A DNA stretch of 64,000 nucleotides from Geothrix paludis (lineage in GTDB: Bacteria; Acidobacteriota; Holophagae; Holophagales; Holophagaceae), in contig NZ_JAKZLC010000003.1 of the NCBI RefSeq assembly GCF_022808815.1, positions 124,001 through 188,000 of the forward strand, in the 5' to 3' direction. The position numbers were made by a program, and so were the translations under genes. Below the pieces are notes generated by a model that saw only the letters and a program-made list of their open reading frames with translations, was not told the DNA's origin and did no database searches. This document shows positions 9,893 through 47,578 of the stretch, piece after piece (within the stretch, counting starts at the first letter, position 1; each line of letters starts with the position of its first letter).

Positions 9893-11362
9893 ATGGGCCG
9901 TGATTTCCAGACCTTCCTCAAGCAGCTCGAGGCCGCGGGCGAGCTGGCCCGCGTGGGCGCCGAAGTGGATCCCTTCCTGGAGATGGGCGCCATCGCCGAC
10001 CGGGTGTCCAAGCAGCCCGGGGGCGGCAAGGCCCTGATCTTCGACCGGCCCAAGGGCAAGGCCATGCCCGTGGCCATGAACGCCTTCGGCAGCCTGAAGC
10101 GCATGGAGATGGCCCTGGGCGTGGACAAGGAGCCCCGCGGCCTAGACACCATCGCCGACCGCATCGAGAAGCTGGTGCAGGAGGCCATGCCCAAGCCCGG
10201 CACGGGCTTTTTCGAGAAGCTGGCCAAGCTGCCCGTGCTGGCGGAGGTCTCCAATTGGATGCCCAAGACCGTCCGCAAGGGGATCTGCCAGGAGGTGGTG
10301 CTGAAGGGCGACCAGGTGGAGCTCACGGACCTGCCGGTGCTCACCACCTGGCCCGAGGACGGCGGCCCCTTCATTACGCTCGGCATGAGCCACACCCGCA
10401 ACAAGCAGACGGGCCACCGGAACACGGGCCTCTACCGGCTGCAGGTCTATGACGACCGGACGCTCGGCTTCCACACCCAGCTGCACCACGACGGCGCGCG
10501 GAACCGCCACGGCTACTCGAAGGACGAGCGCATGCCCGTGGCCGTGAGCTTCGGCGGCGACCCGGCCCTGACCTACGCCGCCACGGCGCCCCTGCCGCCC
10601 TTCCTCAGCGAGGTCATGTTCGCGGGCTTCCTGCGCGGCGAAGGCATCGAGATGGTGCCCTGCGTGACGAACGACCTGGAGGTGCCGGCCGACAGCGAGC
10701 TCGTCATTGAAGGCTACGTGAACCCCGGCGAGCTGCGCCGCGAGGGCCCCTTCGGCGACCACACGGGCTACTACTCCCTGGCCGACGACTACCCCGTGCT
10801 GCACGTGGAAGCCATCACCATGCGGAAGAACCCCGTGTTCCCCGCCACCATCGTCGGCCGGCCGCCCCAGGAGGACACCTACCTGGGACTGGCCACCGAG
10901 CGGATCTTCTTGCCTTTGTTGAGAATGGTGCTGCCCGAGATCCGCGACATGCACCTGCCGGCTGCCGGCGCCTTCCACAACCTGGTGATCCTCTCCATGA
11001 AGAAGGAATACCCGGGCCACGCCCAGAAGGTCATGAACGCCATCTGGGGCACGGGCCAGATCATGTTCACCAAGGGCATCGTGGTTGTGGACGAGGACAT
11101 CGACCCCCACGACCTGACCGAAGTGCTCTTCCGCCTCACCAGCAACGTGGATCCGAAGCGCGACATGCTCTTCACGGAAGGGCCGCTCGACGTGCTGGAC
11201 CACAGCGCCGACCGCTTCGCCTTCGGCAGCAAGGTGGGCATCGACGCCACCCGCAAGAACCGCCCCTGGGACGGCTTCCCCCGCGAGTGGCCGCGCGACC
11301 TGGTGTTCCCCGACGAGATCCTCGACCGCATCGGCCAGCGGTGGAAGGAATACGGCCTATGA
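9893..11362 (+). CDS. UbiD-family prenylated-FMN decarboxylase
   Basis: The protein has 489 residues, the family length. It has the conserved block GELRREGPFGDHTGYYS, containing the Glu/Arg used with prenyl-FMN, and the VGRPPQEDTYLG and KGIVVVDEDID stretches. UbiD enzymes decarboxylate aromatic or unsaturated acids using prFMN made by UbiX, which is not in this window. In an organism of this kind it may act in menaquinone synthesis or aromatic degradation; the substrate cannot be assigned. The start is ATG at 9893 (MGRDFQ), where homology begins. Confidence 0.88.
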   Translation: MGRDFQTFLKQLEAAGELARVGAEVDPFLEMGAIADRVSKQPGGGKALIFDRPKGKAMPVAMNAFGSLKRMEMALGVDKEPRGLDTIADRIEKLVQEAMPKPGTGFFEKLAKLPVLAEVSNWMPKTVRKGICQEVVLKGDQVELTDLPVLTTWPEDGGPFITLGMSHTRNKQTGHRNTGLYRLQVYDDRTLGFHTQLHHDGARNRHGYSKDERMPVAVSFGGDPALTYAATAPLPPFLSEVMFAGFLRGEGIEMVPCVTNDLEVPADSELVIEGYVNPGELRREGPFGDHTGYYSLADDYPVLHVEAITMRKNPVFPATIVGRPPQEDTYLGLATERIFLPLLRMVLPEIRDMHLPAAGAFHNLVILSMKKEYPGHAQKVMNAIWGTGQIMFTKGIVVVDEDIDPHDLTEVLFRLTSNVDPKRDMLFTEGPLDVLDHSADRFAFGSKVGIDATRKNRPWDGFPREWPRDLVFPDEILDRIGQRWKEYGL

Positions 11363-43190: not shown

Positions 43191-43244
43191 ATGACAAGAC
43201 TCGGGTTTGAGCGTATGCTGACGATGTTTCGGGAAATAGCGAAA
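43191..43244 (+). promoter_or_regulatory. ars promoter 1 and ArsR operator
   Basis: Candidate -35 ATGACA (43191-43196), 17-base spacer, -10 TATGCT (43214-43219). The inverted repeat TTTCG-N8-CGAAA (43227-43244) follows immediately and reaches the first base of the arsR start codon. The same repeat with the same spacing occurs upstream of the second arsR. Confidence 0.65.
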
Positions 43245-43633
43245 TGACCTTTGAACCCCTCCGTCCCCTCGTGGACACCCTCAAAGTCCTGGCCCACCCC
43301 GTGCGCCTGCGCATCCTCGCACTCCTGCACGGGGGCGAGCTGTGCGTCTGCGAGGTGGCCGAGGTGCTGGGCCTGGCGCCCTCCACCGTCTCCGAGCACC
43401 TGACCGGCCTGCGCCGCACGGGGCTGGTGCGCGAGTGGAAGGTGGGCCGCTGGGTCCACGTGGCCCTGGCCGACGAGGCCGCCACCCGGCCCCTGCTGGA
43501 GGCCCTCTGGCCCCTCATGGCCGGCGCCGAGGCCGAGCTTTCCCGGGACCGGGCCCAGGCCCGCGCCCTCCGCTGCGATCCCTGCGACCCCGTCGCCTGT
43601 CCCCCTTCCCGCACCCTCCAGGAGCACGCATGA
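43244..43633 (+). CDS. arsR: ArsR-family metalloregulator (ArsR1)
   Basis: The protein has 129 residues. It has a winged helix (VLAHPVRLRILALLHGGELCVCEVAEVLGLAPSTVSEHL region) with the classic As(III) box ELCVCEV (C34, C36), and extra cysteines in the C-terminal CDPCDPVACP. As(III) binding should release DNA. It heads the island and overlaps the next gene by four bases (ATGA). Confidence 0.93.
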   Translation: MTFEPLRPLVDTLKVLAHPVRLRILALLHGGELCVCEVAEVLGLAPSTVSEHLTGLRRTGLVREWKVGRWVHVALADEAATRPLLEALWPLMAGAEAELSRDRAQARALRCDPCDPVACPPSRTLQEHA

Positions 43634-43968
43634 CCACCCAGGCCCAGACTGAGACCTCGACCGACTCCGGCCTCAGCGAGACCACCCTCAACCTCATCGC
43701 CCTGGGCGCCGCCATCGGCTCCAACGCCGAGCGCGCCTTCCGCGCCCACCAGAGCCGCCTGGAAGAGTTGGGCGTCTCCAAGGACGACATGATCGAGGCC
43801 GTGAACATGGCCCTGCGCGTGAAGGGCGATCCCCACTCGCGGATCATGGCCCTGGCCCAGACGACGCTGGTGGGCGAGAGCGCCGGCGGCTGCTGCGGCG
43901 GCGCCTGCGCCTGCGAAGAGGCCGGCGGCCAGAAGGGCGACTGCGGCGACGACTGCGACTGCGGCTAG
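43630..43968 (+). CDS. CMD/AhpD-like small protein with Cys-rich tail
   Basis: The protein has 112 residues. Residues about 15-80 are homologous to the CMD domain in the next gene (IGAA(I/V), LGV(S)(R/K)(E/D)DM). The AhpD-type CxxCxxxH is degenerate: A33 and A36 replace both cysteines while H40 is kept. The C-terminus holds seven cysteines (88, 89, 93, 95, 105, 109, 111; GGCCGGACAC ... DCGDDCDCG), suggesting metal or As(III) binding. It probably buffers or hands on As(III). It is not a standard ars gene. Confidence 0.7.
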   Translation: MTTQAQTETSTDSGLSETTLNLIALGAAIGSNAERAFRAHQSRLEELGVSKDDMIEAVNMALRVKGDPHSRIMALAQTTLVGESAGGCCGGACACEEAGGQKGDCGDDCDCG

Positions 43969-44095: not shown

Positions 44096-44719
44096 ATGAT
44101 CCGCGTCCAGGTGTTCGATCCTCCCATGTGCTGTTCCACCGGCGTCTGCGGCCCTTCCGTGGACCCCAGGCTCGTGCGCTTCTCCGCGGACCTGGACTGG
44201 GTGAAGACACAGGGCGTGGCCGTGGAGCGGTACAACCTCGCGCAGCAGCCCCTCGCGTTCGCCCAGGATCCCGAGGTCAAGGCGGCCCTCCAGGGCGAAG
44301 GCGAGAAGGCCCTGCCGCTGATCAAGGTGGAGGGCCAGGTCCAGAGCCGCGGACGCTACCCCTCGCGGGAGGAGCTCGCCGCATGGCTGGGGCTGGGCGC
44401 TCCGGAACCCTCCCGCTTCACGGAGGCGGTCCAGGAGCTCGTCGCCATCGGCGCCGCCGTGGCCGCGAACTGCGAGAGCTGCTTCAAGTTCCACTACGAC
44501 AAGGCCCGGCGCCTCGGCGTCTCGCGGGAGGACATGCTCCGGGCCGTCCAGACAGCCCAGAGCGTCAAGCAGGTCCCCGCCAAGTCCGTGCTGAGCCTGG
44601 CGGAGCGCTACCTGGCCCAGCCATCTCGCAGCCGGATCGAGGCCTCGGACCTCGGGCCCGGGCTCGGGGCTTCCTCGCTGGAAGACGGCGCCGGCCAGAC
44701 CCCCGGTTCCTGCGGTTGA
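44096..44719 (+). CDS. arsD: ArsD arsenic chaperone fused to a CMD/AhpD-like domain
   Basis: The protein has 207 residues. Residues 1-100 are ArsD: C12-C13 and C18 in PMCCSTGVCG, with NLAQQPLAFAQDPEV and GRYPSREELAAWLG as in E. coli. In place of the usual short Cys-pair tail there is a CMD domain (about 107-175) with an intact C126-E-S-C129-F-K-F-H133 redox motif. It hands As(III) to ArsA. The fused domain could reduce ArsD's own or a substrate's cysteines. ATG at 44096 is preceded by GGAGAGG. Confidence 0.85.
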   Translation: MIRVQVFDPPMCCSTGVCGPSVDPRLVRFSADLDWVKTQGVAVERYNLAQQPLAFAQDPEVKAALQGEGEKALPLIKVEGQVQSRGRYPSREELAAWLGLGAPEPSRFTEAVQELVAIGAAVAANCESCFKFHYDKARRLGVSREDMLRAVQTAQSVKQVPAKSVLSLAERYLAQPSRSRIEASDLGPGLGASSLEDGAGQTPGSCG

Positions 44720-44729
44720 AGCGCATCTT

Positions 44730-46478
44730 ATGGCTCTCCTCGTCCCCCATCCCACGCAACTCCTGTTCTTCACGGGAAAGGGGGGCGTCGGCAAGACCTC
44801 CGCGGCCTGCAGCACGGCCATCGCGCTGGCGGACGCGGGGAAGCGGGTCCTGCTCGTCAGCACGGATCCGGCCTCCAACCTGGATGAGGTGTTGGGCACG
44901 GAGCTGTCTGGCGAGCCTCAGTCCGTTTCCGGGGTGCCGGGCCTCCGGGCCCTGAACATCGATCCGGAGGAGACGGCCCGTGCCTACCGGGAGGGCATCA
45001 TCGCACCCGTCCGGGGCCTGCTCCCCGAGGCGGTCGTCGCCAGCATGGAGGAGCAGCTCTCGGGGGCCTGCACCACGGAGATCGCGGCCTTCGATGTGTT
45101 CTCCCGGCTGCTGGGCGATCCGGCCCGGACGGCGGACTTCGACCACATCCTCTTCGACACGGCGCCCACGGGCCACACCCTGCGGCTGCTGGAGCTTCCC
45201 GCGGCCTGGTCCACCTTCATCGAGACCAACGTCGGCGGGAACTCGTGCCTCGGGCCGCTGTCGGGGCTCTCGGCCCAGCGGGGGCTCTACGAGGCCGCCC
45301 AGGCCGCGCTCCGGGACACCGGCCGCACCACCCTCGTGCTGGTGGCCCGGCCCGATGACGCATCCCTGCGGGAAGCGGAGCGCACCCGGATCGAGCTGGC
45401 CCACCTGGGCCTCCGGCAGGTCCACCTGATCCTCAACGGCCTCTTCCGGGCGATGGGTTCTTCGGATCTCATCGCCGCGGAGTTGCAGGCCCGGGAAGCC
45501 CAGGCCCTGGATCACCTCCCCGAGGGGCTCCGGGAGCTGCCCCGCACGACCGTCCCCCTGCTGCCCTACGGCCTCGTCGGCCTGGGGGCCCTGCGGAGCA
45601 TGGGCGGCGAGAAAGGTTCGCCGCGTATCGAAGCGGCCGGCGAGGCGGTCGACCCGTCCCGGTTCGACACGCTGGAAGCCCTGGCGGATCGCCTGGTGGC
45701 TCAGGGCAAGGGCGTGGTGATGACCATGGGCAAGGGCGGCGTGGGGAAGACCACCCTGGCGGCCCGCCTGGCCCTGCGGCTGGCCGGCGCAGGCTTCCCG
45801 GTCACGCTCACCACCACGGACCCGGCGGCCCATGTGGAGGCGGCCGCCCCCGTGCGGCCGCCCACGCTGCGCGTGACCCGCATCGATCCCGAGCGGGTGA
45901 CGGAACGGTACCGGGCGGAGGTCCTGGCCGCGGCGGCGCCGGACCTGGACGCCCCGGGGCGCGCGCTCCTGGAGGAGGATCTGCGCTCGCCCTGCACGGA
46001 GGAGATCGCCGTCTTCCGGGCCTTCGCGGAGACCGTGGCCCAGGGCCGGGAGGGCTTCGTCATCATCGACACCGCCCCCACAGGACACACCCTGCTCCTG
46101 CTGGACGCGGCGGAGGCCTACCACCGGGAGGTGCTGCGCCAGTCCAGCGATGCGCCGGAAGCCGTGAGACAGCTCCTGCCGCGCCTTCGCGATGCGGCCT
46201 TCACGCGCATCCTGCTCGTCACCCTTCCCGAGGCCACGCCCATCCACGAGGCCATGCAGCTGGAAGGGGACCTCGCCCGCGCCGGGATCCGTCCCTTCGC
46301 CTGGGTGGTGAACCAGAGCCTCACGCCCCTGGCGGTCACGGATCCCGTCCTGAAAGCGCGCCGGGCCCAGGAGGCCCGCTTCCTGAACGAGCTCCTCCGC
46401 CACACCTCCTCCATCGTGCTCGAGCCCCTCGCCTGCGTTCCGGCAGACCCCGTTCTTTCCCCTGGAGTCCACCCATGA
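44730..46478 (+). CDS. arsA: Arsenite-transporting ATPase ArsA
   Basis: The protein has 582 residues in two homologous halves, like E. coli ArsA (583). P-loops are GKGGVGKTS (A1) and GKGGVGKTT (A2). Metal-site cysteines are kept: [22 protein letters not shown] and [10 protein letters not shown] (equivalents of C113, C172 and C422). [12 protein letters not shown] signals occur in both halves. It energises As(III) efflux; here its partner is probably the Acr3 permease. Overlaps acr3 by four bases. Confidence 0.94.
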
Positions 46479-47578
46479 CAGCGCCCATGACCGCGCCCAA
46501 GCGCCTCGCCTTCCTGGACCGCTTCCTCACCCTGTGGATCTTCCTCGCCATGGGGCTGGGCATCCTGCTGGGCTACGCCGTCCCGGGCTTCAACCGGGCG
46601 GTGAACAGCCTCAACGTGGGGACCACCAGCCTGCCCATCGCCGCGGGACTCATCCTGATGATGTACCCCGTGCTGGCGAAGGTGCACTTCGAGGAGATGG
46701 GGAAGGTGTTCCTGAACCGGAAGGTCCTGACCTTCTCCCTGATCCAGAACTGGGTGGCGGGGCCGGTGGTCATGTTCCTCCTGGCGGTGCTCTTCCTCCG
46801 CGACAAGCCCGAATACATGGCGGGCCTCATCCTCGTGGGGCTCGCGCGGTGCATTGCCATGGTCATCGTCTGGAACGACCTGGCCTGCGGGAACCGCGAG
46901 TACTGCGCGGGGCTCGTGGCCTTCAACGCCGTCTTCCAGATGCTGCTCTACTCCGTCTACGCGTGGTTCTTCCTCACGGTGGCCCCGGGCTGGCTGGGCC
47001 TGCACGGGGTGGCCATCCATATCACCATGGGCGAGATCGCCAAGACGGTCCTCATCTACCTGGGCATCCCGTTCGCGGCGGGGCTCATCACCCGCCTGGT
47101 CCTGGTCCGGATGAAGGGCCACGAGTGGTACGACCACCGCTTCGTGCCGGCCATCAGCCCCATCACCCTGGTATCGCTGCTGTTCACCATCGTGGTGATG
47201 TTCAGCCTGAAGGGCGACAGCATCGTCCGGGTCCCCTTCGATGTCGCGCGGGTGGCCCTGCCCCTGCTGCTCTACTTCCTCATCATGTTCTTCGTCTCGT
47301 TCTGGATCAGCCACCGGCTTGGCGCCCCCTACGGCCACACGGCCACGCTCTCCTTCACGGCCGCCTCCAACGACTTCGAGCTGGCCATCGCCGTGGCCGT
47401 CGGCACCTTCGGCATCGCCCACGGGGCGGCTTTCGCGGCCGTCATCGGGCCGCTTGTGGAGGTTCCCGTGCTCATCGGCCTGGTCAACGTGGCCCTCTGG
47501 CTGCGGCGGAAGTGGTACGCCGCCGGCGCGGAGGAAGTCGCAGCCACCGGATCCGCGGCGGATTCTCACGGGAGGTGA
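46475..47578 (+). CDS. acr3: Acr3-family arsenite efflux permease
   Basis: The protein has 367 residues with ten membrane helices. It has the Acr3 core [17 protein letters not shown] with the essential Cys in the fourth helix, and [19 protein letters not shown] in the late region. It exports As(III). Acr3 is unusual as the direct partner of ArsA, where ArsB is classic, though Acr3-ArsA pairs are known. Confidence 0.94.

Follow-up and report, generated by a model that had tools for sequence, protein, structure and literature searches.

The cysteines of ArsD oxidise easily, and the means by which they stay available for As(III) are, to our knowledge, not settled. A gene in the window, the 64,000-nucleotide stretch of Geothrix paludis DNA analyzed here, bears on this question, as it joins ArsD to an AhpD-type domain in a single protein. 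The fusion suggests that the bacteria carrying it may keep their arsenic-gripping cysteines reduced on the spot.

Architecture of the ArsD-AhpD protein

The arsD-AhpD fusion gene (44096..44719, + strand) encodes a 207-residue protein and is identified by ORF, Pfam, NCBIfam, and fold evidence. In the ORF reading of the window, it is one uninterrupted frame with no frameshift. The start codon at 44096 is preceded by AGGAGAGG, and its nearest relatives, the approximately 90% identical fusions of Geothrix fuzhouensis and G. terrae, begin at the same residue. The first-pass annotation had proposed a fusion of ArsD with a CMD domain, to be abandoned if a frameshift split it into separate genes. The fusion stands: the frame is unbroken, Pfam and NCBIfam models of both parts score above their cut-offs, and the arrangement recurs, with PF06953 and PF02627 both matched by 29 of 29 aligned members. 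A frameshift or assembly artefact was rejected on the basis of the single frame and its presence in many genomes, including the isolates G. fuzhouensis, G. terrae, and Anaeromyxobacter sp. PSR-1. The AlphaFold2 model, built with 29 aligned relatives, has a mean pLDDT of 87 and a pTM of 0.66, with low confidence towards the end of the protein in the tail region. The protein contains six cysteines, at positions 12, 13, 18, 126, 129, and 206.

The ArsD domain spans residues 1-105 (44096..44410, +). It matches PF06953 over residues 1-105 (E 7e-43, 146 bits against a cut-off of 27) and the chaperon_ArsD model NF033727 (128.6 bits against 90), and residues 1-103 of the model fit the solved ArsD structures 3ktb (Z 16.9) and 3mwh (Z 16.0). 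Alignment to ArsD places the As(III) site codons at 44129-44131 (C12), 44132-44134 (C13), and 44147-44149 (C18) on the + strand, exactly the cysteines first reported as retained. A family score above the curated cut-off and the presence of all three cysteines place the protein within ArsD. PMC4562236 cites these same three residues as required for the chaperone activity of R773 ArsD. The window protein shares its N-terminal fold, C12/C13/C18, and a neighboring arsA gene with R773-type ArsD (3mwh, 3kgk, 3ktb), but it adds an AhpD domain after residue 105 and its tail has decayed, whereas most fused relatives place the Cys-pair tail after the AhpD domain.

The AhpD/CMD domain occupies residues 105-176 (44408..44623, +). 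It scores above the cut-offs of PF02627 (residues 105-163, E 8e-10, 39 bits against 23) and the AhpD core model TIGR00778 (29.3 against 27.8). Its motif residues E114 (44435-44437), C126 (44471-44473), C129 (44480-44482), and H133 (44492-44494), all on the + strand, are invariant in alignment A1, and the pattern E-x11-CxxCxxxH arose in only 2 of 200,000 shuffles of the domain. Residues 107-176 of the model fit the AhpD-like protein RclX (7y4r, Z 10.6, rmsd 1.3 over 70 residues) and O27018 (3bey, Z 9.9), so the AhpD identity is supported by fold as well as motif. The C126xxC129xxxH133 pattern of the first-pass annotation is thus confirmed by Pfam, NCBIfam, and fold, with exact numbering, and family scores together with fold place the domain in the AhpD/CMD family.

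The proton relay of M. tuberculosis AhpD consists of E118, C130, H132, C133, and H137 (PMC3141380). The window domain contains four of the five relay residues (E, C, H/Y/F, C, H) and Ser128 at the fifth, a position that is His, Tyr, or Phe in AhpDs and Pro, Ser, Asn, Thr, or Val in the fused proteins. The missing fifth residue argues against classical AhpD peroxidase chemistry. RclX, an AhpD-like protein required to survive thiol oxidants, also retains four of the five (PMC7950407), and its fold is the closest match to the window domain. The domain therefore shares the helical hairpin, E-x11-CxxCxxxH, and four relay residues with M. tuberculosis AhpD, RclX (7y4r), and the MTH protein O27018 (3bey). 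Unlike these proteins, it is a single, short domain attached to ArsD within an ars operon, with the His/Tyr between the cysteines replaced by Ser in the window and by Pro in most relatives. C126 and C129 are both encoded by TGC. A selenocysteine form of the fusion was rejected, as none of the 40 fused proteins has an in-frame TGA at either position; the TGA flagged in one relative (L087) is an ordinary stop.

The remaining residues, 177-207 (44624..44716, +), form a decayed tail with C206 as its single cysteine, where relatives mostly have CC..CC. At least two cysteines, typically CC..CC, follow the AhpD domain in 36 of the 40 fused proteins, and the usual order is therefore ArsD, AhpD, Cys tail. 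Tail cysteines are lost only in the Geothrix copies (one Cys) and in one other Holophagaceae copy (no Cys). The suggestion that the CMD domain replaces the Cys-pair tail thus holds for a few Holophagaceae including the window; generally, the domain follows the ArsD core and precedes the tail. The vicinal pairs C112-C113 and C119-C120 of R773 ArsD are tied to repressor function and are not universal, and the window protein, with one tail cysteine, has no C-terminal vicinal pair. As described in PMC4562236, Bacillus CDB3 ArsD also lacks C-terminal Cys pairs, so such pairs are no condition for membership among the chaperones.

The ars cluster of the window

The cluster lies entirely on the + strand and begins with arsR, an ArsR/SmtB repressor gene (43244..43633, +; NF033788, 84.8 bits, above cut-off). 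A small CMD-family gene, CMD0 (43630..43968, +; PF02627, 23.6 bits, just above cut-off), precedes the fusion. The gene for the two-domain arsenite pump ATPase ArsA (44730..46478, +; TIGR04291, 748.5 bits) begins 10 bp downstream of arsD-AhpD and is followed by the arsenite efflux transporter gene acr3 (46475..47578, +; TIGR00832, 445 bits). Further along are a rhodanese-like gene, an arsN1b-like acetyltransferase gene, a low-molecular-weight phosphatase/ArsC-like gene, a second arsR, and an arsM-like methyltransferase gene.

CMD0 is conserved across Geothrix. It lacks the CxxC, reading NAERAFRAH at the motif, and ends in a Cys-rich tail, CCGGACACEE..CGDDCDCG. Its model, from 13 similar sequences, has a pLDDT of 70, and a Foldseek search with it returned no match. 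From its sequence, CMD0 is perhaps a metal(loid)-binding scaffold. Compensation by CMD0 for the lost tail of the fused protein was rejected, as CMD0-like matches also occur where the fused ArsD retains its tail (G005, G027).

Distribution and conservation

The fused ArsD-AhpD form is real and recurrent in many bacterial phyla. Searches for ArsD with a C-terminal CMD domain, a check first proposed with the annotation, yielded 40 distinct fused proteins; their sources are Acidobacteriota, Myxococcota, Nitrospirota, Planctomycetota, Verrucomicrobiota, Atribacterota, and Alpha- and Gammaproteobacteria. A scan of GTDB contigs found the fusion in 28 of 60 loci, a share that leans to close relatives and is no census because the scan patterns were derived from the window protein. 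Its Pseudomonadota carriers are Methylococcaceae, Novosphingobium, and Rhodospirillales. Among genomes with an ArsD match, the fusion is present in 7 of 16 Acidobacteriota, 8 of 12 Myxococcota, and 2 of 3 Nitrospirota, as counted from match ranges with a fused search profile that may favor fused proteins. Plasmid-borne spread was rejected: among 72,556 plasmids, 2126 match ArsD but none reaches 80% coverage of the fusion, and a search of the plasmids with the window's CMD domain alone gave no match.

The E-C-C-H residues are kept in 38 of the 40 fused proteins; the other two have S..A at the CxxC and retain the Glu and His. Pro stands directly before the second Cys in 32 of 40; otherwise this position holds Asn, Thr, Ser, or Val. 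The ArsD cysteines C12/C13/C18 persist in 39 of 40. Judged by dN/dS against close relatives (0.13-0.20 for the ArsD part and 0.11-0.20 for the AhpD part), both domains are under purifying selection.

The fusion seems to be previously undescribed. In the open-access literature searched, with subscription journals mostly outside the search, ArsD was not found together with AhpD and arsenic or with alkylhydroperoxidase, and ArsD with carboxymuconolactone decarboxylase gave only an unrelated match. A review and an ArsA survey describe ArsD-ArsN and other ars fusions and do not mention ArsD-AhpD. Annotation would tend to hide the fusion, because the equivalog NF033727 scores fused proteins above its cut-off as plain ArsD.

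Gene neighborhoods and related redox systems

Where the contig extends far enough, the fused arsD has arsA as its neighbor; L031 is among the few exceptions. AhpD-type and ArsD genes also occur separately within ars clusters: one locus (L120) has arsD, a small zinc-ribbon-like gene, CMD, and arsA, and two others (L061 and L068) have arsA, CMD, and arsD. A standalone CMD gene adjoins arsM in L112, and arsR and arsC in L079. In Geothrix (L122:2929-3897), a standalone AhpD-like gene closely related to the ArsD-type domain is not part of an ars cluster and has a sigma-factor-like gene just downstream.

Thioredoxin-like/permease cassettes of the ArsEFG type are likewise thiol-redox proteins encoded with ars genes, but they are separate genes and are absent from the window's cluster. 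ArsE-like, thioredoxin-like, and DsbD-TM-like genes follow the fused arsD in L033, L031, and L117. Enrichment of such ArsEFG-like thiol genes at fused loci was rejected, as thioredoxin/DsbD-TM neighbors are present at 7 of 28 fused and 6 of 31 unfused loci.

The ArsM-AhpD selenoprotein families NF041537 and MduS (NF045649) are the top NCBIfam matches of the standalone CMD relatives. Like the window protein, they join a related AhpD domain to an As(III)-thiol protein; their partner is ArsM, whereas that of the window is ArsD with the motif CxxC. Their motif is CxxU (PMC13188914), in keeping with redox chemistry at the second Cys position. The window domain matches NF041537 and NF045649 weakly (21 and 23 bits), and the protein has neither an ArsM domain nor selenocysteine. 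AhpD domains on both ArsM and ArsD raise the general idea that thiol-redox modules may be attached to arsenic-handling proteins.

Proposed mechanism

The leading reading, to which we give about an even chance, is that the protein would be an ArsD metallochaperone for As(III) whose own AhpD domain carries out thiol-disulfide exchange and so maintains the As(III)-binding cysteines in reduced form. C126 and C129 would act as a reducing dithiol; in the majority of relatives, the CxxC has Pro ahead of its second Cys, like the CGPC of thioredoxin. The dithiol may draw electrons from a cellular thiol donor, such as a dihydrolipoyl protein, thioredoxin, or a low-molecular-weight thiol. With these it could reduce disulfides that link the vicinal As(III)-binding cysteines in ArsD, the Cys tail, or ArsA. 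The reduced chaperone would load As(III) and hand it to ArsA for export via Acr3. A thiol-exchange module is favored because of the conserved E-CxxC-H, the three cysteines that must be reduced, the adjacency of ArsA, and the ArsM-AhpD CxxU fusions. Separate AhpD genes beside arsD/arsA and the ArsM-AhpD families point the same way.

The first-pass annotation had likewise suggested that the domain could couple thiol redox state or As(III) transfer to ArsA. Such a role is the best-supported reading, given the near-invariant E-CxxC-H, the arsA adjacency, and the separate AhpD genes. Counting against it are the Cys tail, which mostly persists behind the AhpD domain, and the CxxC, which is not essential everywhere. 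Two CxxC-less fused relatives and Anaeromyxobacter copies without the domain or its core speak against an essential catalytic role, and the many ArsDs that occur without an AhpD domain count against the leading reading.

Vicinal dithiols bind As(III), and C126/C129, with the Cys tail, could instead gather arsenite and pass it to C12/C13/C18 with no net redox. In most members, the domain has the ArsD core on one side and the Cys-pair tail on the other, a position consistent with such a relay. So are the extra CC repeats ahead of the CMD domain in one relative (L042) and the highly Cys-rich tail that accompanies an AhpD-type domain in CMD0 and in a Holophagaceae ArsD-CMD relative (L111:2865-3524, -; tail GGCGCGCGEGECSEEGCGESSCGEGGCGCN). 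However, a binding site alone leaves the conservation of E114 and H133, the residues of the AhpD proton relay, unexplained, and the sister AhpD families carry CxxU at the same motif. On balance, this alternative is possible but unlikely.

Gain and loss of the domain

In the ArsD tree, fused and unfused sequences are intermixed, with 15 changes on the best tree, three of them forced by starred branches. Losses can be followed in Anaeromyxobacter. In one copy (L162), 117 bp of the CMD core are deleted in frame, and a relative (L156) carries GCCGTC at both edges of the missing segment. In another (L048), the whole CMD domain is lost and SLYT runs directly into the Cys tail. In L087/L115, a fused protein beside arsA has lost the CxxC and kept C12/C13/C18, while L111 lacks both these cysteines and the CxxC. 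As natural CxxC-less and domain-less forms exist, the function of the domain is dispensable in some lineages. Nature thus offers a matched set of ArsD proteins, some carrying the complete domain, some lacking it, and some in which the domain has no CxxC, that can serve as a direct experimental handle. In Anaeromyxobacter oryzisoli (L110:2700-3262), the terminal part of an ArsD-CMD gene continues in frame into the terminal part of an ECF-sigma-like frame, and a broken arsA start comes next; the joined frame looks like a relic.

In the CMD tree, the fused domains and a group of standalone domains from Holophagaceae fall together, separated from the remaining standalone CMDs (99/95). A single clade of all fused CMD domains was rejected (AU p 0.008), although the same hypothesis without the two CxxC-less domains was not (p 0.07). 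The history of the fusion is unsure because the trees rest on 77-100 columns. The CxxC-less domains of L087, L111, L129, and Geothrix CMD0 form one group (91/86, best CMD tree), whose observed members all come from the window's family and G340 (Holophagaceae). This grouping, of moderate support and from a short alignment, would fit an origin of CMD0 from a fused protein that may have lost the CxxC first and ArsD second, with L111 as a stage.

Retention of the domain without CxxC in this group also bears on a scaffold role, in which the AhpD domain would mainly oligomerise ArsD into trimers or hexamers so that chaperone sites or Cys tails cooperate, with the CxxC secondary. AhpD-like proteins are commonly hexamers or trimers (PMC3141380). 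Yet CxxC, E, and H persist in 38 of 40 fused proteins and the CxxC-less group is narrowly confined, making this role rather improbable.

Dihydrolipoyl groups are a classic target of arsenite, and dihydrolipoyl SucB serves as the reductant of M. tuberculosis AhpD. The fusion would unite these two links if the AhpD head docked arsenite-poisoned dihydrolipoyl groups, stripped off As(III), and passed it to the ArsD head and ArsA; it would then detoxify enzyme-bound rather than free arsenite. Lipoyl genes were not noticed in the clusters, and we regard this as very unlikely. It is scarcely credible that the domain hitch-hikes with little effect and is retained by chance, since repeated loss and the mixed ArsD tree would fit this but the low dN/dS, invariant active-site residues, and spread over many phyla would not.

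Other ArsD extensions

ArsD also carries other extensions. In L061:5274-6326, L068:5284-6285, and L063:543-1457, it is followed by a hydrophobic stretch, which by its composition is probably membrane-spanning, and a further domain with a Cys-rich end; the L068 fusion adjoins a permease-like gene. Anaeromyxobacter sp. PSR-1 encodes, besides its fused copies, two further ArsDs with a different C-terminal extension (L114:759-1058 and 9966-10292, -).
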